A stretch of DNA of 64,000 nucleotides from Brachyhypopomus gauderio (Eukaryota > Chordata > Actinopteri > Gymnotiformes > Hypopomidae). This document shows, piece after piece, positions 1-50,461 of this stretch (its first letter is position 1; every line of letters starts with the position of its first letter). Both the position numbers and the translations under genes were made by a program. Below the pieces are notes generated by a model. The model was not told the origin of the DNA, made no database searches, and was given only the letters and a program-made list of their open reading frames with translations. The stretch lies in contig NC_135226.1 in the NCBI RefSeq assembly GCF_052324685.1, forward strand, positions 18,924,973 to 18,988,972. Reading direction: 5' to 3'.

Positions 1-333
1 GCAGACGCTGTTGAGTGGACACAGGAGAGCGTACGCAGGTGAGTACACAGTTGAGATTATGCAGGTGAGAGGATGCAGTTGAGTGGACAATGGATGCAGG
101 AGAGAGTACTCAGTTGAGTGGAATCAGTTGAATGGACGCAGGAAAGAGTTCACAGGTGAGTATGCAGTTGAGTACGCAGTTGAGATTATGCAGGTGAGAG
201 GACGCAGTTGAGTGGACAATGGATGCAGGAGAGAGTACTCAGTTGAGTGGACGCAGTGAATGGACGCAGGAGAGAGTACGCAGTTGAGAGTAATCAGTTG
301 AGTGGACACAGGAGAGAGTTCGCAGGTGAGTAT

Positions 334-532
334 GAAGGGGGGGACGAAGACAGCCTCCACGTGGCCTCCCCCGCAAGTAGCTGAAGAGTAGTTGCAAGGT
401 TGCATGCCCTTCAAGCGAAACAAATGTCTTCACAACGTCCACAGCCTAAAGTTCCTGCGCTAGCACTTTTCCAGCTTAACATCGAAGGTCTCACCACTGC
501 CAAAATTGCCGTCCTCGAGCAAATAGTTGCAG
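334..532 (+). mobile_element. LINE endonuclease 5' fragment trapped in the array, copy 1
   Basis: About 200 bp of non-repeat sequence interrupts the array. From 445 one frame reads PKVPALALFQLNIEGLTTAK followed by IAVLEQIV. This resembles the N-terminus of the apurinic-type endonuclease of non-LTR retrotransposons (an LNIEGL-type start). The clade cannot be fixed from so short a piece. The fragment stops abruptly where 14-bp monomers resume, so it is a captured scrap and not an active element. Confidence 0.6.
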
Positions 533-1326
533 GACGCAGTTGAATGGACGCAGGAGTTGGGTGGATGCTGTTGAATGGACGCAGGAGAGAGTACTCAGTT
601 GAGCGGACGCAGTTGAATGGACGCAGGAGAGAGTACGCAGTTGAGAGTAATCAGTTGAGCGGACGCAGGAGAGAGTACTCAGTTGAGCAGACGCTGTTGA
701 CTGGTCACAGGAGAGAACTCACAGGTGAGTACGCAGTTGAGATTACGCAGGTGAGAGGACGCAGTTGAATGGACGCTGTTGAATGGATGCAGGAGAGAGT
801 ACGTAGTTTAGAGTACTCAGTTGAGTGGACGCAGGAGAGAGTACTCAGTTGAGCAGACGCTGTTGATCGGACACAGGAGAGAGTTCGCAGGTGAGTATGC
901 AGTTGAGTACGCAGTTGAGATGTTGCAGGTGAGTGGACAGTGGACGCAGCAGAGTACTCAGTTGAGTGGACGCAGGAGAGAGTACTCAGTTGAGCAGACG
1001 CTGTTGAGTGGACACAGGAGAGCGTACGCAGGTGAGTACACAGTTGAGATTATGCAGGTGAGAGGATGCAGTTGAGTGGACAATGGATGCAGGAGAGAGT
1101 ACTCAGTTGAGTGGAATCAGTTGAATGGACGCAGGAAAGAGTTCACAGGTGAGTATGCAGTTGAGTACGCAGTTGAGATTATGCAGGTGAGAGGACGCAG
1201 TTGAGTGGACAATGGATGCAGGAGAGAGTACTCAGTTGAGTGGACGCAGTGAATGGACGCAGGAGAGAGTACGCAGTTGAGAGTAATCAGTTGAGTGGAC
1301 ACAGGAGAGAGTTCGCAGGTGAGTAT

Positions 1327-1525
1327 GAAGGGGGGGACGAAGACAGCCTCCACGTGGCCTCCCCCGCAAGTAGCTGAAGAGTAGTTGCAAGGTTGCATGC
1401 CCTTCAAGCGAAACAAATGTCTTCACAACGTTCACAGCCTAAAGTTCCTGCGCTAGCACTTTTCCAGCTTAACATCGAAGGTCTCACCACTGCCAAAATT
1501 GCCGTCCTCGAGCAAATAGTTGCAG
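1327..1525 (+). mobile_element. LINE endonuclease 5' fragment trapped in the array, copy 2
   Basis: This repeats the 334-532 fragment 993 bp downstream with at most a few base changes. The boundaries with the array are the same, so it multiplied as part of the higher-order unit and did not insert independently. Confidence 0.6.
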
Positions 1526-4408
1526 GACGCAGTTGAATGGACGCAGGAGTTGGGTGGATGCTGTTGAATGGACGCAGGAGAGAGTACTCAGTTGAGCGGA
1601 CGCAGTTGAATGGACGCAGGAGAGAGTACGCAGTTGAGAGTAATCAGTTGAGCGGACGCAGGAGAGAGTACTCAGTTGAGCAGACGCTGTTGACTGGTTA
1701 CAGGAGAGAACTCACAGGTGAGTACGCAGTTGAGATTACGCAGGTGAGAGGACGCAGTTGAATGGACGCTGTTGAATGGATGCTGGAGAGAGTACGTAGT
1801 TTAGAGTACTCAGTTGAGTGGACGCAGGAGAGAGTACTCAGTTGAGCAGACGCTGTTGATCGGACACAGGAGAGAGTTCGCAGGTGAGTATGCAGTTGAG
1901 TACGCAGTTGAGATGTTGCAGGTGAGTTGACAGTGGACGCAGCAGAGTACTCAGTTGAGTGGACGCAGTTGAATGGACGCAGTTGAGAGTACTCAGTTGA
2001 GTGGACGCAGGAGAGAGTACTCAGTTGAGCAGACGCTGTTGAGTGGACACAGGAGAGCGTACGCAGGTGAGTATGCAGTTGAGATTATGCAGATGAGAGG
2101 ACACAGTTGAGTGGACAATGAATGTAGGAGAGAGTACTCAGTTGAGTGGAATCAGTTGAATGGACGCAGGAGAGAGTACTCAGTTGAGCAGACGCTGTTG
2201 ATCGGACACAGGAGAGAGTTCGCAAGTGAGTATGCAGTTGAGTACGCAGTTGACATGTTGCAGGTGAGTGGACAGTGGACGCAGCAGAGTACTCAGTTGA
2301 GTGGACGCAGTTGAGAGTACTCAGTTGAGTGGACGCAGGAAAGAGTACTCAGTTGAGCAGACGCTGTTGAGTGGACACAGGAGAGCGTACGCAGGTGAGT
2401 ATGCAGTTGACATTATGCAGATGAGAGGACACTGTTGAGTGGACAATGGATGCAGGAGAGAGTACTCAGTTGAGTGGAATCAGTTGAATGGACGCAGGAG
2501 AGAGTACTCAGTTGAGCAGACGCTGTTGATCGGACACAGGAGAGAGTTCGCAGGTGAGTATGCAGTGGAGTACGCAGTTGAGATGTTGCAGGTGAGTGGA
2601 CAGTGGACGCAGCAGAGTACTCAGTTGAGTGGACGCAGTTGAGAGTACTCAGTTGAGTGGACGCAGGAGAGAGTACTCTGTTGAGCAGACGCTGTTGAGT
2701 GGACACAGGAGATAGTTAGCAGGTGAGTATGCAGTTGAGATTATGCAGATGAGAGGACGCAGTTGAGTGGAAAATGGACGCAGGAGAGAGTACTCAGTTG
2801 AGTGGAATCAGTTGAATGGACGCAGGAGAGAGTACTCACTTGAGCAGACGCTGTTGATTGGACACAGGAGAGAGTTCGCAGGTGAGTATCCAGTTGAGTA
2901 CGCAGTTGAGATGTTGCAGGTGAGAGGACGCAATTGAATGGACGCTGTTGAATGGATGCAGGAGAGAGTACGTAGTTGAGAGTACTCAGTTGAGTGGACG
3001 CAGGAGAGAGTACTTAGTTGAGCAGACGCTGTTGATCGGACACAGGAGAGAGTTCGCAGGTGAGTATGCAGTTGAGTACGCAGTTGAGATGTTGCAGGTG
3101 AGTGGACAGTGGACGCAGCAGAGTACTCAGTTGAGTGGATGCAGTTGAATGGACGCAGTTGAGAGTACTCAGTTGAGTGGACGCAGGAGAGAGCACTCAG
3201 TTGAGCAGACGCTGTTGGGTGGACACAGGAGAGCGTACGCAGGTGAGTATGCAGTTGACATTATGCAGATGAGAGGACACTGTTGAGTGGACAATGGATG
3301 CAGGAGAGAGTACTCAGTTGAGTGGAATCAGTTGAATGGACGCAGGAGAGAGTACTCAGTTGAGCAGACGCTGTTGATCGGACACAGGAGAGAGTTCGCA
3401 GGTGAGTATGCAGTGGAGTACGCAGTTGAGATGTTGCAGGTGAGTGGACAGTGGACGCAGCAGAGTACTCAGTTGAGTGGACGCAGTTGAGAGTACTCAG
3501 TTTAGTGGACGCAGGAGAGAGTACTCTGTTGAGCAGACGCTGTTGAGTGGACACAGGAGAGAGTTAGCAGGTGAGTATGCAGTTGAGATTATGCAGATGA
3601 GAGGACGCAGTTGAGTGGAAAATGGACGCAGGAGAGAGTACTCAGTTGAGTGGAATCAGTTGAATGGACGCAGGAGAGAGTACTCACTTGAGCAGACGCT
3701 GTTGATTGGACACAGGAGAGAGTTCGCAGGTGAGTATCCAGTTGAGTACGCAGTTGAGATGTTGCAGGTGAGTGGACAGTGGACGCAGCAGAGTACTCTG
3801 TTGAGTGGACACAGTTGAGAGTAATCAGTTGAGCGGACGCAGGAGAGAGTACTCAGTTGAGCAGACGCTGTTGAGTGGACACAGGAGAGAGATAGCAGGT
3901 GAGTATGCAGTTGAGATTATGCAGATGAGAGGACGCAGTTGAGTGGACAATGGACGCAGGAGAGAGTACTCACTTTAGCAGACGCTGTTGATCGGACACA
4001 GGAGAGAGTTTGCAGGTGAGTATGCAGTTGAGTACGCAGTTGAGATGTTGCAGGTGAGTGGACAGTGGACGCAGCAGAGTACTCAGTTGAGTGGACGCAG
4101 TTGAATGGACGCAGTTGAGAGTACTCTGTTGAGTGGACGCAGGAGAGAGTACTCAGTTGAGCAGACGCTGTTGAGTGGACACAGGAGAGCGTACGCAGGT
4201 GAGTATGCAGTTGAGATTATGCAGATGAGAGGACGCAGTTGAGTGGACACTGGACGCAGGAGAGAGTACTCAGTTGAGTGGACGCAGTGAATGGACGCAG
4301 GAGAGAGTACGCAGTTGAGAGTAATCAGTTGAGTGGATGCAGGAGAAAGTACTCAGTTGAGCAGACGCTGTTGAGTGGACACAGGAGAGAGTTCGCAGGT
4401 GAGTATGC

Positions 4409-4603
4409 AGGGGGAGACGAAGACAGCCTCCACGTGGCCTCCCCCGCAAGTAGCTGAAGAGTAGTTGCAAGGTTGCATGCCCTTCAAGCGAAACAAATGT
4501 CTTCACAACGTCCACAGCCTAAAGTTCCTGCGCTAGCACTTTTCCAGCTTAACATCGAAGGTCTCACCACTGCCAAAATTGCCGTCCTCGAGCAAATAGT
4601 TGC
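4409..4603 (+). mobile_element. LINE endonuclease 5' fragment trapped in the array, copy 3
   Basis: A third copy of the fragment, with a slightly different left junction (GCAGGGGGAGACG in place of GAAGGGGGGGACG). The right junction and the LNIEGLTTAK frame are kept, which again points to amplification with the array. Confidence 0.6.
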
Positions 4604-4729
4604 GGGACGCAGTTGAATGGACGCAGGAGTTGGGTGGATGCTGTTGAATGGACGCAGGAGAGAGTACTCAGTTGAGTGGACGCAGTTGAATGGACGCAGG
4701 AGAGAGTACGCAGTTTAGAGTACTCAGTT

Positions 4730-7062
4730 GAGTGGACGCAGGAGAGAGTACTCAGTTGAGCAGACGCTGTTGATCGGACACAGGAGAGAGTTCGCAGGTG
4801 AGTATGCAGTTGAGTACGCAGTTGAGATGTTGCAGGTGAGTGGACAGTGGACGCAGCAGAGTACTCAGTTGAGTGGACGCAGTTGAATGGACGCAGTTGA
4901 GAGTACTCAGTTGAGTGGACGCAGGAGAGAGTACTCTGTTGAGCAGACGCTGTTGAGTGGACACAGGGGAGAGTTAGCAGGTGAGTATGCAGTTGAGATT
5001 ATGCAGATGAGAGGACGCAGTTGAGTGGAAAATGGACGCAGAAGAGAGTACTCAGTTGAGTGGAATCAGTTGAATGGACGCAGGAGAGAGTACTCACTTG
5101 AGCAGACGCTATTGATTGGACACAGGAGAGAGTTCGCAGGTGAGTATCCAGTTGAGTACGCAGTTGAGATGTTGCAGGTGAGTGGACAGTGGACGCAGCA
5201 GAGTACTCAGTTGAGTGGACGCAGTTGAGAGTAATCAGTTGAGCGGACGCAGGAGAGAGTACTCAGTTGAGCAGACGCTGTTGACTGGTCACAGGAGAGA
5301 ACTCACAGGTCAGTACGCAGTTGAGATTACGCAGGTGAGAGGACGCAGTTGAATGGACGCTGTTGAATGGATGCAGGAGAGAGTACGTAGTTGAGAGTAC
5401 TCAGTTGAGTGGACGCAGGAGAGAGTACTTAGTTGAGCAGACGCTGTTGATCGGACACAGGAGAGAGTTCGCAGGTGAGTATGCAGTTGAGTACGCAGTT
5501 GAGATGTTGCAGGTGAGTGGACAGTGGACGCAGCAGAGTACTCAGTTGAGTGGACGCAGTTGAATGGACGCAGTTGAGAGTACTCAGTTGAGTGGACGCA
5601 GGAGAGAGTACTCAGTTGAGCAGACGCTGTTGGGTGGACACAGGAGAGCGTACGCAGGTGAGTATGCAGTTGACATTATGCAGATGAGAGGACACTGTTG
5701 AGTGGACAATGGATGCAGGAGAGAGTACTCAGTTGAGTGGAATCAGTTGAATGGACGCAGGAGAGAGTACTCAGTTGAGCAGACGCTGTTGATCGGACAC
5801 AGGAGAGAGTTCGCAGGTGAGTATGCAGTGGAGTACGCAGTTGAGATGTTGCAGGTGAGTGGACAGTGGACGCAGCAGAGTACTCAGTTGAGTGGACGCA
5901 GTTGAATGGACGCAGTTGAGAGTACTCAGTTTAGTGGACGCAGGAGAGAGTACTCTGTTGAGCAGACGCTGTTGAGTGGACACAGGGGAGAGTTAGCAGG
6001 TGAGTATGCAGTTGAGATTATGCAGATGAGAGGACGCAGTTGAGTGGAAAATGGACGCAGAAGAGAGTACTCAGTTGAGTGGAATCAGTTGAATGGACGC
6101 AGGAGAGAGTACTCACTTGAGCAGACGCTATTGATTGGACACAGGAGAGAGTTCGCAGGTGAGTATCCAGTTGAGTACGCAGTTGAGATGTTGCAGGTGA
6201 GTGGACAGTGGACGCAGCAGAGTACTCAGTTGAGTGGACGCAGTTGAGAGTAATCAGTTGAGCGGACGCAGGAGAGAGTACTCAGTTGAGCAGACGCTGT
6301 TGACTGGTCACAGGAGAGAACTCACAGGTCAGTACGCAGTTGAGATTACGCAGGTGAGAGGACGCAGTTGAATGGACGCTGTTGAATGGATGCAGGAGAG
6401 AGTACGTAGTTGAGAGTACTCAGTTGAGTGGACGCAGGAGAGAGTACTTAGTTGAGCAGACGCTGTTGATCGGACACAGGAGAGAGTTCGCAGGTGAGTA
6501 TGCAGTTGAGTACGCAGTTGAGATGTTGCAGGTGAGTGGACAGTGGACGCAGCAGAGTACTCAGTTGAGTGGACGCAGTTGAATGGACGCAGTTGAGAGT
6601 ACTCAGTTGAGTGGACGCAGGAGAGAGTACTCAGTTGAGCAGACGCTGTTGGGTGGACACAGGAGAGCGTACGCAGGTGAGTATGCAGTTGACATTATGC
6701 AGATGAGAGGACACTGTTGAGTGGACAATGGATGCAGGAGAGAGTACTCAGTTGAGTGGAATCAGTTGAATGGACGCAGGAGAGAGTACTCAGTTGAGCA
6801 GACGCTGTTGATCGGACACAGGAGAGAGTTCGCAGGTGAGTATGCAGTGGAGTACGCAGTTGAGATGTTGCAGGTGAGTGGACAGTGGACGCAGCAGAGT
6901 ACTCAGTTGAGTGGACGCAGTTGAATGGACGCAGTTGAGAGTACTCAGTTTAGTGGACGCAGGAGAGAGTACTCTGTTGAGCAGACGCTGTTGAGTGGAC
7001 ACAGGAGAGATTTAGCAGGTGAGTATGCAGTTGAGATTATGCAGATGAGAGGACGCAGTTGA
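4730..7062 (+). repeat. 1019-bp higher-order repeat blocks
   Basis: Recognisable variants recur at exactly 1019 bp spacing (5025, 6044, 7063; 5363, 6382; 5702, 6721). Each block consists of three sub-blocks of about 339-342 bp. A further 342-bp step runs from 7063 to 7405, and an 848-bp spacing from 2439 to 3287. The changing periods fit unequal crossing over within one array. Confidence 0.8.
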
Positions 7063-10000
7063 GTGGAAAATGGACGCAGGAGAGAGTACTCAGTTGAGTG
7101 GAATCAGTTGAATGGACGCAGGAGAGAGTACTCACTTGAGCAGACGCTGTTGATTGGACACAGGAGAGAGTTCGCAGGTGAGTATCCAGTTGAGTACGCA
7201 GTTGAGATGTTGCAGGTGAGTGGACAGTGGACGCAGCAGAGTACTCAGTTGAGTGGACGCAGTTGAATGGACGCAGTTGAGAGTACTCAGTTGAGTGGAC
7301 GCAGGAGAGAGTACTCTGTTGAGCAGACGCTGTTGAGTGGACACAGGAGAGAGTTAGCAGGTGAGTATTCAGTTGAGATTATGCAGATGAGAGGACGCAG
7401 TTGATTGGAAAATGGACGCAGGAGAGAGTACTCAGTTGAGTGGAATCAGTTGAATGGACGCAGGAGAGAGTACTCACTTGAGCAGACGCTGTTGATTGGA
7501 CACAGGAGAGAGTTCGCAGGTGAGTATCCAGTTGAGTACGCAGTTGAGATGTTGCAGGTGAGTGGACAGTGGACGCAGCAGAGTACTCAGTTGAGTGGAC
7601 ACTGTTGAATGGACACAGGAGAGAGTATGCAGTTGAGAGTACTCAGTTGAGTGGACACAGGAGAGAGTACTCAGTTGAGCAGACGCTGTTGAGTGGACAC
7701 AGGAGAGAGTTCGCAGGTGAGTATGCAGTTGAGATTATGCAGGTGAGAGGACGCAGTTGAGTGGACACTGTTGATCGGACACAGGAGAGAGTATGCAGTT
7801 GAGAGTACTCAGTTGAGTGGACACAGGAGAGAGTACTCAGTTGAGCAGACGCTGTTGAGTGGACACAGGAGAGAGTTCGCAGGTGAGTATGCAGTTGAGA
7901 TTATGCAGGTGAGAGGACGCAGTTGAGTGGACAATGGACTAAGGAGAGAGTACTCAGTTGATTGGACGCAGTTGAATGGACGCAGGAGAGAGTACTCAGT
8001 TGAGCAGACGCTGTTGAGTGGACACAGGATAGAGTTTGCAGGTGAGTATGCAGTTGAGTACGGAGTTGAGATTATGCAGGTCAGAGGATGCAATTGAGTG
8101 GACAATGGACGCAGGAGAGAGTACTCAGTTGAGTGGACGCAGTGAATGGATGCAGGAGAGAGGATGCAGTTGAGTGGACAATGGACGCAGGAGAGAGTAC
8201 TCAGTTGAGTGGACACAGTTGAGAGTACTCAGTTGAGTGGACGCAGGAGAGAGTATTCAGTTGAGCAGACGCCGTTGAGTGGACACAGGAGAGAGTTCGC
8301 AGGTGAGTATACAGTTGAGTACGCAGTTGAGATTATGCAGATGAGAGGACGCAGGTGAGTGGACAATTGACGCTGGAGAGAGTACTCAATTGAGTGGACA
8401 CAGTGAATGGACACAGGAGAGAGTACGCAGTTGAGTGTACTCAGTTGAGCAAACGCTGTTGAATGGACACAGGAGAGAACACGCAGGTGAGTACGCAGTT
8501 GAGTATGCAGTTGAGATTACGCAGGTGAGAGGACACAGTTGGGTGGACGCTGTTGAATGGACGCAGGAGAGAGTACTCAGTTGATTGGACACAGTTGAAT
8601 GGACGCAGGAGAGAATACGCAGTTGAGAGTAATCAGTTGAGTGGACACAGGAGAGAGTACTCAGTTGAGCAGACGCTGTTGAGTGGACACAGGAGAGCGT
8701 ACGCAGGTGAGTACGCAGTTGAGATTACGCAGGTGAAAGGACGCAGTTGAGTCGACGCTGTTGAATGGACACAGGAGAGAGTATGCAGTTGAGAGTACTC
8801 AGTTGAGTGGACACAAGAGAGAGTACTCAGTTGAGCAGACGCTGTTGAGTGGACACAGGAGAGCGTACGCAGGTGAGTACGCAGTTGAGATTACGCAGGT
8901 GAAAGGATGCAGTTGAGTGGACACTGTTGAATGGACACAGGAGAGAGTATGCAGTTGAGAGTACTCAGTTGAGTGGACACAGGAGAGAGTACTCAGTTGA
9001 GCAGACGCTGTTGAGTGGACACAGGAGAGCATACGCAGGTGAGTACGCAGTTGGGATTACGCAGGTGAAAGGACGCAGTTGAGTGGACACTGTTGAATGG
9101 ACACAGGAGAGAGTATGCAGTTGAGAGTACTCAGTTCAGTGGACACAGGAGAGAGTACTCAGTTGAGCAGACGCTGTTGAGTGGACACAGGAGAGCGTAC
9201 GCAGGTGAGTACGCAGTTGAGATTACGCAGGTGAAAGGACGCAGTTGAGTGGACACTGTTGAATGGACACAGCAGAGAGTATGCAGTTGAGAGTACTCAG
9301 TTGAGTGGACACAGGAGAGAGTACTCAGTTGAGCAGACGCTGTTGAGTGGACACAGGAGAGAGTTCGCAGGTGAGTATGCAGTTGAGATTATGCAGGTGA
9401 GAGGACACAGTTGAGTGGACAATGGACTAAGGAGAGAGTACTCAGTTGATTGGACACAGTTGAATGGACGCAGGAGAGAGTACACAGTTGAGAGTACTCA
9501 CTTGAGTGGATGCAGGAGGGAGTACTCAGTTGAGCAGACGCTGTTGAGTGGACACGAGAGAGGTCGCAGGTGAGTACGCAGTTGAGATTACACAGGTGAG
9601 AGGACTCAGTTGAGTGGACGCTGTTGAGTGGACACAGGAGAGAGTACTCATTGAGCAGACGCTGTTGAGTGGACACAGTAGAGCGTACGCAGGTGAGTAC
9701 GCAGTTGAGATTACGCAGGTGAGTGGACAGTGGACGCTGGAGAGAGTACTCAGTTGAGAGTACGCAATTGAGTGGATGCTGTTGAATGGACGCAGGAGAG
9801 AGTTCGCAGTTGAGTCGATGCAGTTGAATGGATGCAGGAGAGAGTACTCAGTTGAGTGGACGCAGTTGAGTGGATGCAGGAGAGAGTACTCAGTTGAGCA
9901 GACGCTGTTGAGTGGACACAGGAGAGCGTACGCAGGTGAGTACGCAGTTGAGATTACGCAGGTGAGTGGACAGTGGACGCTGGAGAGAGTACTCAGTTGA

Positions 10001-11704
10001 GAGTACGCAATTGAGTGGATGCTGTTGAATGGACGCAGGAGAGAGTACACAGTTGAGTGGATGCAGTTGAAAGGATGCAGGAGAGAGTACGCAGTTGAGT
10101 CGATGCAGTTGAATGGATGCAGGAGAGAGTACTCAGTTGAGTGGACGCAGTTGAGTGGATGCAGGAGAGAGTACTCAGTTGAGCAGACGCTGTTGAGTGG
10201 ACACAGGAGAGCGTACGCAGGTGAGTACGCAGTTGAGATTACGCAGGTGAGTGGACAGTGGACGCTGGAGAGAGTACTCAGTTGAGTGGATGCAGTTAAA
10301 TGGACACAGGAGAGAGTACGCAGTTGAGAGTACTCAGTTGAGTCGACGCAGGAGAGAGTACTCAGTTGAGCAGACGCTGTTGAGTGGACACAGGATAGAG
10401 TTCGCAGGTGAGTATGCAGTTGAGTACGCAGTTGAGATTATGCAGGTGAGAGGATGCAATTGAGTGGACAATGGACGCAGGAGAGAGTACTCAGTTGAGT
10501 GGACGCAGTGAATGGATGCAGGAGAGAGGATGCAGTTGAGTGGACAATGGACGCAGGAGAGAGTACTCAGTTGAGCAGACGCTGTTGAGTGGACACAGGA
10601 TAGAGTTCGCAGGTGAGTATGCAGTTGAGTATGCAGTTGAGATTATGCAGGTGAGAGGATGCAGTTGAGTGGACAATGGACGCAGGAGAGAGTACTCAGT
10701 TGAGTGGACGCAGTGAATGGACGCAGGAGAGAGTACGCAGTTGAGTGTACTCAGTTGAGCAAACACTGTTGAGTGGACACAGGAGAGAACACGCAGGTGA
10801 GTACGCAGTTGAGTATGCAGTTGACATTTTGCAAGTGAGTGGACAGTGGATGCAGGAGAGAGTACTCAGTTGAGTGGACGCAGTTGAAAGGATGCAGGAG
10901 AGAGTATGCAGTTGAGTCGATGCAGTTGAATGGATGCAGGAGAGAGTACTCAGTTAAGTGGACGCAGGAGAGAGAACTCAGTTGAGCAGACGCTGTTGAG
11001 TGGACACAGGAGAGAGTACGCAGGTGAGTACGCAGTTCAGATTACACAGGTGAGAGGACGCTGTTGAGTGGACAGGGGAGAGAGGACACCGTTGAATGGA
11101 CGCAGGAAAGAATATGAAGTTGAGAGTACGCAGTTGAGTGGACGCAGGAGAGAGGACTCAGTTGAGCAGACGCTGTTGAGTGGACACAGGAGAGAGTACA
11201 CTGTTGAGAGTACGCAGTTGAGTGGACGAAGTTGAATCGACGCAGGAGAGAGTACTCAGTTGAGTGGACGCAGTTGAATTGACGCAGGAGAGTACGCAGT
11301 TGAGAGTACACAGTTGAGCTGAAGCTGTTGAGTGGACACAGAGAGTATGAAGGTGAGTTTGCAATTGAGGACGCAGTTAACTGGACGCTGTTGAGTAGAC
11401 GCTGGAGAGAGTACGCAGTTGAGAGTACTCAGTTGAGCAGACGCTGTTGAGTGGACACAGGAGAGAGTATGCAGTTGAGAGTGCTCAGTTGAGTGGACAC
11501 AGGAGAGAGTACTCAGTTGAGCGGACACTGTTCCATGGACGCAGGAGAGAGCACTCAATTGAGCGGACGCTGTTGAGTGGACACATGAGAGAGTACGCAG
11601 GTATGAGGACGTGTTTGAGTGGACTCAGGTGAGAGTACGGAGTTGAGTGGACATTGTTGCATGGACGCAGGTGAGAGGATGCGGGCGATTAGACACACTC
11701 TACA

Positions 11705-12190
11705 GCGTCCTCTCACCTGCGTCCTTTCACCTGCATCCTCTCAACTGTGTACTCTCACCTGCGTCCAATCAACTGCGTACTCTCTCCTGTGTCCCCTCAA
11801 CTGCGTCCACTCAACAGCGTTCGATCACCTGCGTCCACTCAACTGCATCCTCTCACCTGCATACTCTCTCCTGCATCCACTCAACTGCGTCCACTCAACT
11901 GCGTCCTCTCACCTGCATACTCTCTTCTGTGTCCACTCAACAGCGTCCACTCAACTGAGTACTCTCTCCTGCGTCCTCTCAACTGCCTCCTCACCTGCGT
12001 CCTCTCTCCTGTATCCATTCAACTGCGTCTTCTCACCTGCATACTCTCTCCTGTGTCCACTCAACTGACTACTCTCTCCTGCGTCCATTCAGCTACGTCC
12101 ACTCAACTGCGTACTCTCCTGCGTCCACTCACCTGCATCCTCTCAACTGCGTACTTTCACCTGTGTCCACTCACCTGCGTCCGCTCAACA
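11705..12190 (-). repeat. Inverted block of the same minisatellite
   Basis: Between these positions the + strand shows the reverse complement of the array monomers (CGTCCACTCAACTG, ACTCTCTCCTGCGTCC, CCTCTCACCTGCGT). Forward orientation resumes at 12204. Both switch points are imperfect palindromes: arms 11665-11682 and 11705-11722 with a 22-nt spacer, and arms 12174-12190 and 12204-12220 with a 13-nt spacer. The block is pyrimidine-rich on the + strand. Confidence 0.9.
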
Positions 12191-12203
12191 GCGTTTGATC
12201 ACC

Positions 12204-12394: not shown

Positions 12395-12590
12395 GCTACA
12401 CCCCGGCCATGCCGCCCCCACCGCAGACCGAGCTAATGAGCAAGCCAAAGGCGACAGTGGCAAGGAAAAACTCCCTAGGGGAATAGGAAGATGCACCAGA
12501 GGAAAATGGAAATGGCGATGTCTTTTTAAAACTTGTAATATAATTGAAATGTTATGGTTCAGCATAGATCAGTTTTATATGTTCTTCAGA
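12395..12590. mobile_element. Dispersed teleost repeat fragment
   Basis: Sequence around 12450-12470 (CAGTGGCAAGGAAAAACTCC) is one I recall as a frequent motif in dispersed teleost repeats. No ends or target duplication are visible. It lies between the array and the LINE reverse transcriptase and may belong to the same insertion. The assignment rests on recall and not on a search. Confidence 0.35.
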
Positions 12591-12594
12591 ATTT

Positions 12595-13650
12595 TTGGAC
12601 TATCTTACACATCGGCCACAATACGTGAGGTTGCAGGACTGTGTGTCGGACTTGGTGGTATGTAATACAGGGGCCCCACAAGGAACTGTCTTAGCACCGT
12701 TCCTTTTCACCCTGTACACTGCAGACTTTAGGTATAGCACACAGAACTGTCACCTCCAAAAGTTCTCAGACGACTCAGCTGTTATCGGTCTCATCAGTAA
12801 TGAGGACGATCGAGAATACAGACTGGTTATTCAGAACTTTGTGGATTGGTGCCAAGCTAACCGCCTCCAGATAAATCCTGGGAAAACTAAGGAGCTGGTG
12901 GTGGACTTCCGAAAGCGCAGTCACCCTCACCCAACACCGGTGAACATCCAGGGAACGGACATCGACATGGTGAACTCGTACAAGTACCTGGGTGTTCACC
13001 TAAACACAAAACTGGACTGGTCGGACAACACTGCTGCACTTTACAAAAAGGGTCAAAGCAGACTCTATTTATTAAGAAAACTAAGGTCATTTGGAGTGCG
13101 GGGGCCACTCCTCAAGACCTTTTTTGACACTGTGGTGGCATCAGCCCTTTTTTATGGAGTAGTGTGCTGGGGCAGCAGCATCACTAATGCAGACAGGAAC
13201 AGACTGGACAAACTGATTAGAAAGGCCAGTTCTGTTCTGGGAGAACCCTTGGACACGGTACAGGTGGTGGGAGAAAGGAGAATGCTAAAAAAACTGGCAA
13301 CTCTTATAGTCAATGAATCCCACCCCATGTTTGAGACTTTATCAGCTCTGGGCAGCACCTTCTGTGACCGACTGCGTCACCCAAGGTGTGTTACAGAGCG
13401 TTACCGGAGATCCTTCACCCCTGCTGCAGTTAGACTGTACAATCAGCACTGCTCTCGTTAGCAATACACTTTTTGCCTATAGTTCTTTTCGCTTATATTC
13501 TATGTATATATGTATCAATGTAAGTTTGGAGTCTTGTCCTCTGTACTACTGTCACTTTGTCACTTTGTACCACTGTCACTTTGCTGCTGGGAATTGTGAA
13601 TTTCCCCATTGCGGGACTAATAAAGGCTTATCTTATCTTATCTTATCTTA
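12595..13650 (+). mobile_element. 5'-truncated non-LTR retrotransposon (reverse transcriptase part)
   Basis: An open frame at 12595-13461 (288 codons, entered from a non-ATG codon) encodes the C-terminal part of a LINE reverse transcriptase. TGAPQGTVLAPFLFTLYT (RT block 4) is followed by KFSDDSAVIG, the catalytic Asp-Asp box in the SDD form. Then come the NPGKTKELVVDFR and SYKYLGVHLNTKLDW motifs and a C-terminal RLYLLRKLRSFG segment. The endonuclease and upstream RT are missing, as expected for 5' truncation. The 3' end is a short AT-rich tail with AATAAA at about 13619 followed by (CTTAT)n. Such tandem-repeat tails are typical of CR1/L2/Rex1-type LINEs, and I favour that group without proof. 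It is not an independent host gene. Confidence 0.85.
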
Positions 13651-14444: not shown

Positions 14445-14452
14445 CCTGTGGA

Positions 14453-14570
14453 GAGACGGGTCTGGCTGCAGACCTCCAGCAGGAGGCACCTCTACGCTGG
14501 GGCAGGAAGTGACGCACCTCCACGCTGGGGCAGGAAGTGACGCAGTTCCATGTTGGGGCAGGAAGTGACG
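14453..14570 (+). repeat. Left terminal inverted repeat with tandem subrepeats
   Basis: The outer part (GAGACGGGTCTGGCTGCAG, 14453-14471) is followed by ACCTCCAGCAGGAGGCACC and then by three copies of the GGGGCAGGAAGTGACG motif, each preceded by a CACGCTG-like or CATGTTG-like stretch. The same design in reverse complement closes the element on the right. Confidence 0.8.
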
Positions 14571-14603
14571 AAATTACAACAGTACAATAGTAAAGTTTTC
14601 AAG

Positions 14604-14635
14604 CAAGAGTACCTCGCTGCAGCCAGACCCGTCTC
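14604..14635 (-). repeat. Internal inverted copy of both transposon ends joined
   Basis: This 32-bp stretch joins, in inverted orientation and sharing the central CTGCAG, the reverse complement of the right tip (CAAGAGTACCTCGCTGCAG, one mismatch) to that of the left tip (CTGCAGCCAGACCCGTCTC, perfect). With 14453-14471 it could form a 19-bp perfect stem around about 145 bp of subrepeats. Confidence 0.75.
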
Positions 14636-14991
14636 AAGGTTTTCCTTACTTTTGAATGAAGGTGAGTATCTTAAGGTAAAATAGTTTATTTAATTAGTAT
14701 ATATTTTATTGAACTCTACAGCTTGAGTGAATAAAAGCTAAATAAAAAATAAAGCCTATTGAGACCTGTTTGTTAGCTAGGTAGGGTAACGTTGGCCAAA
14801 GGTTGGCGAACGTTACCCGGGGTGTAAAATGGACACAAATTAAGTATTATATTGAGATCGATCGATCACCAGGTGTTGCCGCCAGAGTGAACTAGTAACT
14901 CATTGAATCATACATATGGATCAGAGGTAAATAAACTAGATTTTTTTCCGGCGTGAGAAATCGGATGTATGGCGTGTGAGCGTGTGAAGAC

Positions 14992-15263
14992 CAGGGGTGT
15001 AGTTGGGGGGCGGGGGACGCCGTCCCCTCACTTATTTTAACCGGTGTTAAAAATGTTATTTTGTTACCGGTGTTGTTCTTGCTAAGACTGTTACGTTCAA
15101 AGCTAGGTTTAAACTTGACGCGTTAGTAATTCGCCAACCACTGGCGATCGATTTATTGCGATATAATACTTAATTTGTGGCTTACACTCGCCACCCCCCG
15201 CTCAACAACTTACACTCGCCATCACGCGACCCCCCCACTTATTTTTTTAGGACTACACCACTG
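14992..15263. mobile_element. Nested hAT-type MITE
   Basis: A 272-bp insertion has 12-bp terminal inverted repeats, CAGGGGTGTAGT on the left and ACTACACCACTG on the right (one mismatch). It is flanked by a perfect 8-bp duplication GTGAAGAC at 14984-14991 and 15264-15271. The CAGNGGTGTAG tip with an 8-bp duplication is typical of hAT elements. It is non-coding, so it was mobilised in trans, and it is younger than the transposon it interrupts. Confidence 0.85.
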
Positions 15264-15271
15264 GTGAAGAC

Positions 15272-15804
15272 GGTCAAATGCGTGTGTTTGAGAGTTGGCA
15301 ACTCTGTGACTTAGTCAAACCAATGTTGCTGTAATTAATATTTAGATGGACAATCATGTCAGTATATTAATTTTATTGGCACAACATACGTGTATTGTAA
15401 TAGGTTTATTTGTGTGCATAAATAATAGGTCTAGGTCATGTTACTTTAGTGTCATAAGCTGATCCATATACATCACCCTAGTTATCCCATGCTTTAAAAC
15501 AATATAAATATTTCCAGGTAATTTAATATTGCTTTACAAATGGAAATTTTTTAAGGATCTTCAGATTATATTAAGTCAGTGAATTTGAAATTTATGGGAA
15601 TGCATATCCGTTTGGGATTTTGATGGACACAGTTGCATGAAACCTCATGCACTACCCTCTGTATGCTGCAATACTGTAGTTTTTTGTTAGGTGTAAATAT
15701 AAAATGTTTCATATATTGTATATATTGCTGACCTTAGAATGATAACATTATAACATTTCAATAAAATAAATGTCCAATTAATCTTATTAATCACTGGGTT
15801 TTAG
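15272..15804. other. AT-rich internal transposon sequence
   Basis: Between the nested MITE and the first zinc-finger exon the DNA is AT-rich with no coding character. It reads like an intron or non-coding leader of the element and ends in a pyrimidine-AG acceptor (GGGTTTTAG) before 15805. Confidence 0.45.
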
Positions 15805-16792
15805 ATGCACCCTTCTATCTGTGATGCTGGTGTACAACCGAACCTCAAAGAATGCAACACATGTTGCAGAAAACTGTTTCACTGTCCTCTTTGCCCAACC
15901 TTCAAACCAACAACAAAGGGGAAGATCCAACAGACATGTGGACGCCCATATCAAGAATGGGATAAAATACAAAGGTACGCAAAGCTTATCTTTATTTTCA
16001 ATCATCATCTATGTTCTTTTAAATGTGCATACAGAGCCTATAGAAAGAATTCATATCCTACTGAAATCCTTGCGTTTTGCCACGTTATACCAAAATGTAA
16101 ATAAATGTCTAACTTTCCAGATGGTTTTACACATTTTAATCTGAAAAATGATATAATTAGTGAAATACCTCTTTTAGATAAGTAATGAGCCCCTTAGAGT
16201 AAACATTATAAACTTTCTCAGGTTCAACCAATCACATTCCAAATCACACACCAGGATAATTGACTCCACTACTAGTAGCACCATGGTTGGAAAGATGCTT
16301 TCAAGAGTTCTGTGATAGAGTTGTGGAAAGTTAGACGAAGGATACAAAAATATAGAATATGGTTATAATATGTAAATACAGCTGGAAACAACCCTAAAAC
16401 TCTGACCTTTTCCATAGCCATTGTCTGAATTACATTTCACAAAACACATTTACCGTAATTATTTCTGGTTTTCAGAGATGTTTAATTTTACTCCCATCAT
16501 GCTTTAAAATGTTTCTTTTTTTATCTTACAGACAAACATCTGTTAAAATGCAGATTATCATGCCGGACAGAGGGTCATTTTCACTGTCCTTTCTGCCAGA
16601 ACACAGTAATACGCCGGAATGATATGGAAAAACACTTGTGTTTGTGTGAGGTGTCTTTGAACACACTACCTTTATCTTCTCCAGCAAGGATCTCTTCTCT
16701 GTCTTCACACCAGTCTTTGAATGTACCTTCCCCATCAAATACCAAGCTTGCATCCAGTGCAATGGTTGGAAAAAAATGGCTTTGACTTGGAG
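15805..16792 (+). pseudogene. Transposon zinc-finger exons, frameshifted
   Basis: Exon-like segment 15805-15974 has an AG acceptor before it and a GT donor after it. It encodes CNTCCRKLFHCPLCPTFKP, then needs a one-base frame change near 15934 to continue as HVDAHIKNGIKYKG. The second segment, 16532-16792, encodes a Cys/His cluster: KCRLSC, then HFHCPFCQNTVIRRNDMEKH and LCLC. This is a C2HC/C2H2-like pair, followed by a Ser/Pro-rich linker. An extra A in the run near 16771 brings a stop (TGA, 16782-16784) just before the GT donor at 16793. The paired CPLC/CPFC fingers suggest DNA binding by the transposon protein, but this copy cannot make an intact product. Confidence 0.55.
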
Positions 16793-16970
16793 GTATGTAC
16801 TTCTATGCATGAATGCAGTAGTTACTTTTCTAAAAAGTGTAATTTTATAATCATACCATTTTGTCATTTCATCTAAAAATAAGTACAAACCTATTTTGGA
16901 ATTAAATTTTAGAGGGTGTAATTTATATATGCTGGTAATCTTATAAGAAAAGGGGTATTTGGTGGCATTC

Positions 16971-17088
16971 CTCTCTGTCTGTCTCTCTGTCTGTCTCACT
17001 CTGTCTGTCTCTCTGTCTCTCTCTGTCTGTCTGTCTCTCTCTGTTTCTGTCTGTGTGTGTGTGTGTGTGTGTGTGTTCGTGTGTGTAA
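16971..17088. repeat. (TCTG/TCTC)n-(TG)n microsatellite
   Basis: Mixed TCTC/TCTG repeats run into a (TG)n tract within the transposon, in what looks like an intron between the zinc-finger and protease remnants. Confidence 0.9.
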
Positions 17089-17157
17089 CATGATTGCTAA
17101 TGACAATAATCTCTCCCCATACATTTTATATTGGATTTTTGTTTATTGTTTCTACAG

Positions 17158-18098
17158 GGGTTTCCAAGCCAAGACTATGGGCTTGACTGTGGGATCTTCA
17201 TGCTAATGGTACGACATGTTATATGTAATTCATTTTGGTTTTAAACTTTTGAACTATAATATAGTAATATTATATTGTAGTTGTCCAAATTATAATATAT
17301 AATACAAACTTCCATGTGTTTAAATTGCAGTCTGCGTTATGTGGCATTGGATGCCCCTTTTGACTACACAATTGTAAGTAACTTGGAACTATTAAAGAGG
17401 ATCAATTGTACAAAAGATGTTCAAATGTAGCAAATTTTACTACTACAATACTTTTGTATGTTTACAGAATGGCATGCCCTCATTGCGGAAATGGTGGTGC
17501 CTGCTTTTAATGGAAAACTTTGAACTTGACAGGTATGATTTGATTGCTTTGAGAAAAATGCCTTAATGTTAGAAGTGTAACCAATATCAGGACTTTTCTA
17601 TTTTCAAGCTTTGGCAAACTCTTTGCTCATTGGACAGAGGAATCCAATGCTGTCCTGCAAGGCCACCATGTGCCGGTCTCAAAACTTAAAAAACGCAAGC
17701 GTGCAGAAGTTGATCAGGTCAGTGCAGTACAGAATCTCTAACCTGAATTGCAATTCCACATAATGTAACTATGGCAACACACTCTGATTTTCACTAAGAC
17801 TGTACTGATTATTTTTCTGTTGAAGGAGCCAGCGGTTGTAAGGGACCTTTCCACAGCTGTGAAATGGATCAGCCAGAACCGCACACAGTTACGGGGGCAT
17901 GTAACAATGCCAATATATTTGACACAGACTGAGGAAGACCGGAAAGATTCCCTCATTGAGCTTATGAAGGGAGATGGCCCAGAGACCAAGGAACCGTTCA
18001 TGTTCCAATTTGAATATGGAGAGGACATGGAATTGTTTTTGGAAGCATGTGTTGACAAACAGGGTCTCTGTGTCAATGCCATGGTTTTAAATAAATGA
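17158..18098 (+). pseudogene. Transposon Ulp1-like protease fragment with SMC5-hinge-like tail
   Basis: Five exon-like segments bounded by AG/GT are visible. Segment 17158-17208 reads GFPSQDYGLDCGIFMLM, which carries the Gln and catalytic Cys signature of Ulp1/SENP (C48) proteases (Q-x4-D-C-G-x-F). Segment 17331-17373 continues the protease fold but needs a two-base frame change. Segment 17469-17532 encodes MPSLRKWWCLLLMENFEL. Segment 17610-17718 encodes FGKLFAHWTEESNAVLQG and a basic KLKKRKR stretch. Segment 17827-18098 (stop TAA 18096-18098) encodes AVKWISQNRTQLRGHV, then PIYLT, EDMELFL and LCVNA. The order and spacing of these match my memory of the SMC5 hinge region (LxWLRNNRxxF..V..P..LT, EDMEVFL, LRVNA). 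The catalytic His part of the protease is absent. Expected role: a SUMO-protease-like accessory protein. This copy is inactive. Confidence 0.55.
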
Positions 18099-18984
18099 CA
18101 AAATACAATGTGTATCAAACATTTAATAAAAAGTAAAAAAAAGAACCTTGATATTATTGATTGTGTGCCTGTTAGGGTGGTGAGGGGGTTGCCGTTTTGT
18201 AAATGTAATGGCCTGTTTAATGAAATATACTGCCAAAAATACTTGGTTATAAAGATGGGTGAGAAAATAACTGTAAAGATGCACTTGCAGTTTTCCTGCT
18301 AATATGCAAATGTAAGTCTAAAGGAAGAACAGCATATTGCATTTCTGAATCTGACTGACTTTCGTTTTATTTAATATTAGGTAGTGTAAGAGTGTCATAC
18401 AATTGGCTTTTCAATTAACAAATAGCTGCTCAAGATATGCAAATTTGCTGAAAAACAAAAGTCTTAATGAATTGGCATGGGTAACAAGGGTGTGTATGTA
18501 CACACACTTTTATAGTTGTTTTACAAAAACAAATTACAGACGAAAACCACAAATTTTTATTATACTGTTTTATTGAACAACCGATCAACATTACAGATAA
18601 TATACAAAATAATATCCCACTTTTTAGAATCATATGGGTTATTTTGAGCAATTTTCTCAACACAGAACAATATCTAGTGTTTCAGTAACAAATATTATTT
18701 AACGTTTTTAATCGTTTTAAACCTTAACATGATCTGGGTGCCTCTCCAGCACCAGTGAGCTCACAGTAGCACTAATACACTAGCGTCTTTACTGCCTAAA
18801 CCTGTTTACTACATTGAAATATAGAGGAAAGTTGTTGTTTTTTTTTGCTTTTAAGCACAATACGTTCATCTGTCCTGGCCCAGTGGATAGTTAGCTAGCT
18901 GTTTTTAATCGGTATTTCTAGCATTGAGTTCCATTCATCTAGGCTCTGCTAATATCAAAGATATTTTATAAAATATAAATAAAA

Positions 18985-19228
18985 ATAAATCGATACATAG
19001 ATAAACATAAACGCGAAGCAAAATATTATTTATGTAAATCTGAATCGTAAATCCATACAAGGACACCCGTTTCGCCAGACGTGTCTCCGTTTCCAGCCCC
19101 ACGTTAATAAATCGATACATAGATAAACATAAACGCGAAGCAAAATATTATTTATGTAAATCTGAATCGTAAATCCATACAAGGACACCCGTTTCGCCAG
19201 ACGCGTCTCCGTTTCCAGCCTCACGTTG
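18985..19228. repeat. 122-bp tandem duplication next to the right transposon end
   Basis: The stretch from AATAAATCGATACATAG through CCGTTTCCAGCC is present twice in direct order, offset by 122 bp. The copies are almost identical (GACGTGTCTCC against GACGCGTCTCC). It lies just inside the right inverted repeat. Confidence 0.9.
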
Positions 19229-19326
19229 GAGCTGCGTCACTTCCTGCCCCAGCGTGGAGGTGCGTCACTTCCTGCCCCAGCGTGGAGGTGCCTCCTGCTG
19301 GAGGTCTGCAGCCAGGTACTCTTGTG
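19229..19326 (-). repeat. Right terminal inverted repeat with tandem subrepeats
   Basis: GCTGCGTCACTTCCTGCCCC and a second subrepeat copy (the reverse complement of the left-end subrepeats) are followed by GGTGCCTCCTGCTGGAGGTC and the tip CTGCAGCCAGGTACTCTTG (19306-19324). The flanking CCTGTGGA duplication follows at 19327. Confidence 0.8.
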
Positions 19327-19334
19327 CCTGTGGA

Positions 19335-20171: not shown

Positions 20172-50461
<30,290 letters not shown>

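Follow-up and report, generated by a model that had tools for sequence, protein, structure and literature searches.

A cut-and-paste DNA transposon of Brachyhypopomus gauderio with a Ulp1 protease remnant and a last exon resembling part of the SMC5 hinge

What might a DNA transposon gain by carrying a stretch of protein that resembles SMC5? The question is raised by an element at positions 14453-19326 of a 64,000-nucleotide stretch of the genome of the fish Brachyhypopomus gauderio (contig NC_135226.1), hereafter called the window. An original prediction, made from the letters of the window alone, described a transposon bounded by inverted ends and flanked by an 8-bp duplication, whose gene joins CPLC and CPFC zinc motifs, the core of a SUMO protease and a last exon patterned on the SMC5 hinge, in a copy that is frameshifted and lacks the His part of the protease. 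It also supposed that the SMC5 segment had been captured, perhaps to target or evade SMC5/6, and it pointed to a link with KDZ and Zisupton transposons. Our analysis indicates that the element is almost certainly a DNA transposon copy of the cut-and-paste type, and that the end of its gene, here termed the tail, is very probably homologous to SMC5 residues about 460-540. The overall reading that we favor, and to which we would give roughly an even chance, is that an old capture from SMC5 may now serve as a docking tail through which a deSUMOylating protease reaches SMC5/6.

Several types of comparison bear on the likeness between the tail and SMC5. Searched with phmmer, the last exon alone finds SMC5 as its top PDB match (E=2.4e-05; runner-up 0.19), and a profile of nine tails again places SMC5 first (E=5.6e-11; runner-up 0.45), as does the tail exon of a second family. 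The window tail shares 37% identity with the SMC5 stretch over about 80 residues, and the alignment of the two scores 105, compared with a mean of 24.1 (standard deviation 4.5) and a maximum of 52 among 2000 shuffles. Moreover, a hand-made scramble of the tail reached a best E of 0.57, with no SMC protein among its matches. In the reverse direction, the SMC5 stretch searched against the whole genome gave 29 rows, 2 at a single place presumed to be the host smc5 and 27 at places matched also by the tail, some of which are known by coordinates alone (for example C21:10390930 and C6:33084337, 41% to SMC5). Because the stretch precedes the SMC5 latch residue, human Tyr626 (PMC5290277; this and the other papers cited were available as excerpts), it would correspond to the N-terminal subdomain of the hinge.

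The presumed host smc5 appears as two neighboring pieces at C10:7511813-7512490, one with 64% identity (a TAG lies within the match) and the other with 53% (E=0.22). An SMC_N scan that scored 13 of 40 first-look candidates returned 13 genome rows, none of them near tail loci or C10:7511813, so the host label draws on identity. The same SMC5 stretch that is in two pieces there forms one exon in the transposon, as might be expected if the capture went by way of RNA or if an intron was lost afterward.

Other families in the genome have the tail too. Searched as protein, the window tail gave 53 rows with E no higher than 10, of which the 30 at 0.001 or better comprise 20 from the window's own family (80-100% identity), 7 from a second family (39-41%), 2 from a third (37-38%; C18:6969704 and C28:1005209) and one at 31%. 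When the tail of a relative, L049, served as the query, 61 rows were found, including C15:23226952. Since tails at 37-41% identity occur in other families, the capture is, as far as sequence comparison can tell, old and not particular to the window's element, and a recent capture by this element alone is ruled out. Thus, the predicted capture is supported, except that it is not special to this transposon; that a host SMC5 segment was captured once, long ago, seems to us probable. Outside this genome, the tail alignment was compared with IMG/VR, where 190 stretches fit the patterns and 0 were confirmed.

That the gene resides in a mobile element is indicated by its ends and by its copies. The inverted ends (14462-14564 and 19213-19315) are 103 nt long and 93% complementary, and a target duplication stands on both sides (Table 1). 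A DNA search with the last exon gave 22 rows in the 796-Mb genome, 9 of them at about 100%, the window copy included; the other 21 rows were covered by 20 stretches of 9.8 kb, which were read as loci. Over 1,651 bp, each of the eight young sisters has 0 to 6 mismatches to the window copy, with a further 30 to 38 gap bases in seven of the eight, and this near-identity implies that the family moved recently. The last exon is open in all nine young copies at 98.9-100% protein identity, which says little about function because the copies are young. Ends were inspected by eye in 14 copies, and sister copies were found to have them too. Duplications of 8 bp were seen around the window copy, L010, L011, L012, L015 and L020, and one of 7 bp at L009; none was found at L014 or L016, L013 is without its left end, and L018, L019, L021 and L023 yielded no paired ends. 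The left end of the element gave 49 genome rows from the 40 of 46 first-look candidates that were scored, with several copies contributing more than one row. At the right end of L013 (6996-7448), the 28-bp terminal units have expanded to more than 10.

A multi-exon, gene-like organization together with the SMC5 likeness might instead suggest that these exons come from a family of host genes or from an smc5 pseudogene. This explanation is extremely improbable, given nine near-identical dispersed copies, five of them with clear 8-bp duplications that are all different, and given the inverted ends and a tail in one exon where the presumed host gene has two pieces; for the window's family, the copy structure in our view rules it out. 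The absence of SMC_N rows near tail loci speaks against it as well, albeit weakly, the same partly scored scan having left the presumed smc5 unmarked too. The original prediction had named two outcomes that would contradict it, namely an SMC5 score at chance level and a host family without terminal repeats around other copies, and neither emerged from the E-values, the shuffles or the copy ends.

The window copy is a non-autonomous, internally deleted derivative. Where it runs from 16754 to 17057, L013 holds about 930 extra bases, with an open reading frame (ORF) that encodes a CPHC finger and a CPC...CVH knuckle. The term "SWIM-type" used here for this ORF is a label from reading the knuckle motif, and no SWIM profile matched the ORF. 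In the older copies L020 and L024, the sequence extends beyond the knuckle and then skips to the Ulp1 end. The linker exon of these two copies carries repeats of a 17-residue unit, FAHWTEESSAVLQGHHV, with three in L020 (4534-4821) and two in L024 (5004-5240).

Evidence for the protease becomes clear once its exons are joined. The DCG piece of the window copy (17110-17241) by itself matches Peptidase_C48 with E=0.019 and 15.3 bits, below the cut-off of 20.7, and single Ulp1 exons in general remain under that value. L014 retains Ulp1 exons with the His and Asp motifs, and with exons joined by eye the C48 profile gives 34.4 bits for L014 plus the window and 35.0 bits for L049. Read by eye, the His-Asp-Cys triad is GHFQLCV, LFLDS and DCGIF in L014, and GHWKLCV, FIFDS and DCGIF in L049; only the Cys is retained in the window copy. 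A frameshift in the exon at 17331-17373 places the window copy out of register with seven of its eight young sisters and is common to L011 only. The predicted inverted ends, 8-bp duplication, zinc motifs, protease core, missing His part and frameshift were therefore all recovered, whereas the SMC5-like exon, although its likeness stands, begins at 17826 and not at 17827. Pfam searches with small exon pieces mostly gave nothing or matches under cut-off.

A transposase core, for which the original prediction had recommended that copies be collected, was found only outside the window's own family. Among the loci read, no copy of that family has a catalytic core, and a core-like ORF is present only in the relative L049. 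Likewise, tblastn with pieces of the L049 core found nothing in the window or in L001-L028, apart from one chance-level match of 16 residues (E=0.16).

How the parts are joined must be reconstructed from relatives, for which about 300 kb of genome were read as sequence (with overlaps), and much of the architecture is given by match coordinates. In L049, a single strand carries core-like exons, a SAP-like piece (E=4.4e-05, 23.4 bits, just below the cut-off of 23.9), Ulp1 exons with His, Asp and Cys, and the tail. L047 has Ulp1 His/Asp-type sequence that is 30% identical to L049 over 99 residues (E=1.8e-08) and precedes the tail by about 830 bases in the same orientation. Ulp1 sequence followed by an SMC5-like tail on one strand is therefore found in three diverged families (window, L047, L049) whose tails are about 40% identical. 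L048, from the second family, has a SWIM-type ORF, a linker resembling that of the window and a tail on one strand; between its SWIM ORF and tail, only a retroelement fragment was recognized by eye. L047 also has an rve integrase-core ORF (7193-7513, E=6.9e-09), which precedes its second-family tail by 7 kb in the same orientation and is probably a separate element.

Genome-wide positions point in a similar direction. A SWIM-ORF row lies upstream of 13 of the 53 tail rows, on the same strand and within 15 kb, when about 0.0007 would be expected per row by chance. The window's own family accounts for 7 of these 13 pairs, in 2 of which (C6, C16) the SWIM row is only a 42-residue start of the ORF. 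A core precedes a tail on the same strand at C18 (4.0 kb apart), C15 (3.0 kb) and C8 (22 kb), with an opposite-strand control of 0. Furthermore, in the window copy the linker exon stops after a complete codon (17717) and the tail begins with one (17826). On the strength of sister copies and relatives, we infer that the family protein would begin with zinc fingers and continue through a SWIM-type knuckle and a Cys cluster to a core of DDE type, followed by Ulp1, a short basic linker and the tail, where "DDE" is a motif reading of the core and not a profile result.

What such a tail could do is suggested by its presumed source. SMC5/6 silences extrachromosomal viral DNA, and to our knowledge its action against transposons has been little explored. 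The tail might be a docking module, mimicking the surface through which SMC5 contacts the SMC6 hinge or its partners. Docking would place transposase and SUMO protease at SMC5/6 on excised transposon DNA or at the excision break, and the protease would there remove SUMO laid by NSMCE2 and thereby relieve silencing or steer repair. Docking of the tail to SMC5/6 is a possibility that we hold tentatively, being inclined to doubt it, and deSUMOylation at SMC5/6 as the purpose of the tail is unlikely. We are equally doubtful of a self-guided counter-silencing enzyme built by a lineage of animal DNA transposons, in which the SUMO protease and the captured SMC5 hinge half would together strip silencing SUMO from transposon DNA. 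In one study, the SUMO ligase activity of NSMCE2 was needed to silence unintegrated DNA (PMC9980727), and the Ginger paper raised the steering of break repair as a general possibility for Ulp1 and OTU domains (PMC2836005).

A variety of observations weigh against our favored reading. No Pfam family matches the tail, including the hinge model that the original prediction had proposed as a check, and the L049 tail alone reaches SMC5 with E=0.0084, with a designed protein second at 0.03 and a sub-threshold PAS_GdpP match at E=0.004. These results, and an identity of the level given above over so short a stretch, would be compatible with convergence or chance, which is nevertheless very improbable because SMC5 is the top PDB match for the window exon, the second-family exon and the profile, and because the reverse search, the shuffles and the scramble all speak for homology. 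The evidence for co-location consists largely of coordinates and not of read sequence, and the second and third families are regarded as transposons on account of shared gene parts and copy number, not of ends. The ratio of nonsynonymous to synonymous change (dN/dS) between the window tail and older copies is 0.25 to 0.67 in six comparisons; it is 0.89 for L018 and L017, and 0.24, on four changes, for L047 and L048. Fossil copies would blur such values; the comparison between the window and L047, which counts in favor of our reading, shows saturated silent sites and a dN of 0.63. Within 25 kb of 45 of the 49 core rows there is no detectable tail, so the tail either marks a subset of transposons or has diverged beyond reach elsewhere. 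The copied stretch is without the latch residue and the second hinge half, and thus may not bind SMC6. Lastly, a second study covered by the same review found that NSMCE2 ligase activity was not needed (PMC9980727).

Two other roles for a captured tail would accommodate part of this evidence. The many core rows without a tail would suit a tail that is now mainly passive, a structural C-terminal end that stabilizes the Ulp1 domain, which it indeed follows wherever Ulp1 pieces were read (window, L047, L049). We consider this role unlikely, since 37-41% identity with invariant W14, P57, F58, F60, D67, M68 and E69 suggests a specific surface, and since the C-terminal domains in the Ginger1 table, as excerpted, are Ulp1, OTU and PHD and include no SMC part (PMC2836005). 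Alternatively, the captured domain could be a generic binder of DNA or chromatin, for instance of single-stranded DNA at the excision break, that makes no contact with SMC5/6. The Smc5/6 hinge binds single-stranded DNA (PMC5290277), and the L049 gene has its SAP-like piece close to the cut-off, yet the Schizosaccharomyces pombe Smc5 arginines 609 and 615 (Loop C), a pair whose mutation severely impaired DNA binding, belong to the second hinge half and are outside the copied stretch (PMC5290277). In addition, the invariant columns of the tails hold W, I, G, V, D, L, P, F, E, M and C and no basic residue, and a generic binder is in our estimation somewhat unlikely. The old SMC5 capture as a docking tail remains the reading that we favor, and it touches a wider problem. 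What transposons gain from Ulp1 proteases has long been asked, and the Ginger paper, in the excerpt available, only speculates on it (PMC2836005). A transposase with a SUMO protease and an SMC5 segment, retained over long divergence, would unite that question with the question of silencing by SMC5/6.

The features of the window copy are collected in Table 1. In its left part, 14812-14991 matches, at about 80-91%, short stretches some 60-185 bp long that lie outside the copies (L010:8265-8431, L015:1908-2080, L021:104-269 and others), which suggests a further repeat at this place, nested or shared. The surroundings are also rich in repeats. Degenerate tandem repeats (89-12194; units of 14, 42, 166 and 342 bp; guanine-cytosine skew of about 0.3-0.4) occupy more than 10 kb and end shortly before the transposon, and an open frame with a reverse transcriptase domain (12568-13458; RVT_1 E=3.3e-10) is a retroelement fragment near it. 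Farther along, a 42-bp minisatellite at 24769-25717 lies, on both strands, inside open frames that are 326-420 codons long.

Table 1. Features of the transposon copy, in window coordinates.
Feature	Position	Strand	Basis
Left target-site duplication CCTGTGGA	14445..14452	.	read in sequence
Left terminal inverted repeat, 28-bp internal units	14453..14564	+	repeat comparison
CPLC zinc motif exon	15805..15974	+	ORF 15805-16104; donor GT read by eye
CPFC zinc motif exon, 3' side truncated by internal deletion	16532..16754	+	ORF 16486-16785
Deletion junction and microsatellite, where L013 has the zinc-finger/SWIM-type ORF	16755..17057	+	
Ulp1 (C48) exon, Q-x4-DCG-x-F, catalytic Cys	17158..17208	+	C48 score
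Ulp1 C-terminal exon, frameshifted in window copy and L011	17331..17373	+	
Ulp1 C-terminal exon (MPSLRKWW...)	17468..17532	+	
Linker exon, basic end KLKKRKRAE	17609..17717	+	
Last exon: SMC5-hinge-like tail and stop codon	17826..18098	+	
Two AATAAA signals, 18090-18095 and 18125-18130	18090..18130	+	
Two 122-bp tandem units by the right end; number differs among copies	18984..19227	.	
Right terminal inverted repeat	19213..19326	-	
Right target-site duplication CCTGTGGA	19327..19334	.	

Assignment to a superfamily depends on the relatives as well. The SWIM-type ORF has 78 rows in the genome, and the KDZ-associated CxC4 (PF18717) has 37, of which 16 are above cut-off and 26 lie no more than 3 kb downstream of a SWIM-ORF row. 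At the L049 locus, CxC4 scores 26.6 bits, or 26.9 with neighbors, for a cut-off of 26.9; the joined L020 piece, from the window's family, has no CxC4 match. A CxC4 row precedes 31 of the 49 L049-type core rows within 12 kb, with an opposite-strand control of 0. The KDZ core profile (PF18758) has 21 rows; none of the 12 tested is close to a SWIM, core or tail row, and the remaining nine adjoin those 12. This profile found no match in the L049 core ORF, the core being multi-exon and the gene having been read on either side of C18:6963137-6963600. Because the KDZ core profile gave no match, the element is described as a CxC4-associated, DDE-like transposon and is not filed as KDZ or Zisupton. Similar SWIM, CxC4 and core loci at C1:26915639, C6:3912646, C7:1623820 and C7:24622928, with 28% identity to the SWIM ORF, have no stops in their SWIM and core rows and no detectable SMC5-like tail nearby, and these four represent a further family, possibly a young one.

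Target duplications of 8 bp are also found in superfamilies other than KDZ and Zisupton, and SWIM occurs in some MULE transposons. The domain order of MULE transposons differs in that SWIM precedes the core here, and the MULE profile found no match in the pieces tested. Ulp1 has been named in Mutator (PMC2836005). A description of a transposon with an SMC5-like segment was not found in the literature searched, which was seen in part and did not extend to subscription papers and Repbase.

Comparison with better characterized systems places the element among several partial parallels. Zisupton and KDZ transposons are found in fish, fungi and nematodes. Zisupton shares 8-bp duplications with the window's family (PMC12730594), and Zisupton and KDZ transposons resemble it in having multi-exon genes and evidence of inverted ends (PMC9297572) and, as to the relatives of the window element, a CxC4 cluster downstream of a SWIM-type gene; in the excerpts of these two papers, Ulp1, SWIM and SMC are never mentioned. 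Ginger1 is alike in that some families have a C-terminal Ulp1 after the transposase, but it has a Gypsy-type integrase core and 4-bp CCGG or CCGT duplications, and its table does not list an SMC part (PMC2836005, in the sections available). Given the 8-bp duplications here and the lack of an rve integrase match in the window and L049 pieces tested, Ginger1 was set aside; the rve ORF of L047 lies 7 kb from the tail. With SMC5 itself, the tail shares about 80 residues, but it is without the second hinge half and the latch residue, and neither an ATPase head nor a coiled coil was found in the gene pieces scanned. If the docking proposal were true, the element would be a transposon counterpart of the viral SMC5/6 antagonists, one that acts through mimicry and deSUMOylation instead of degradation.

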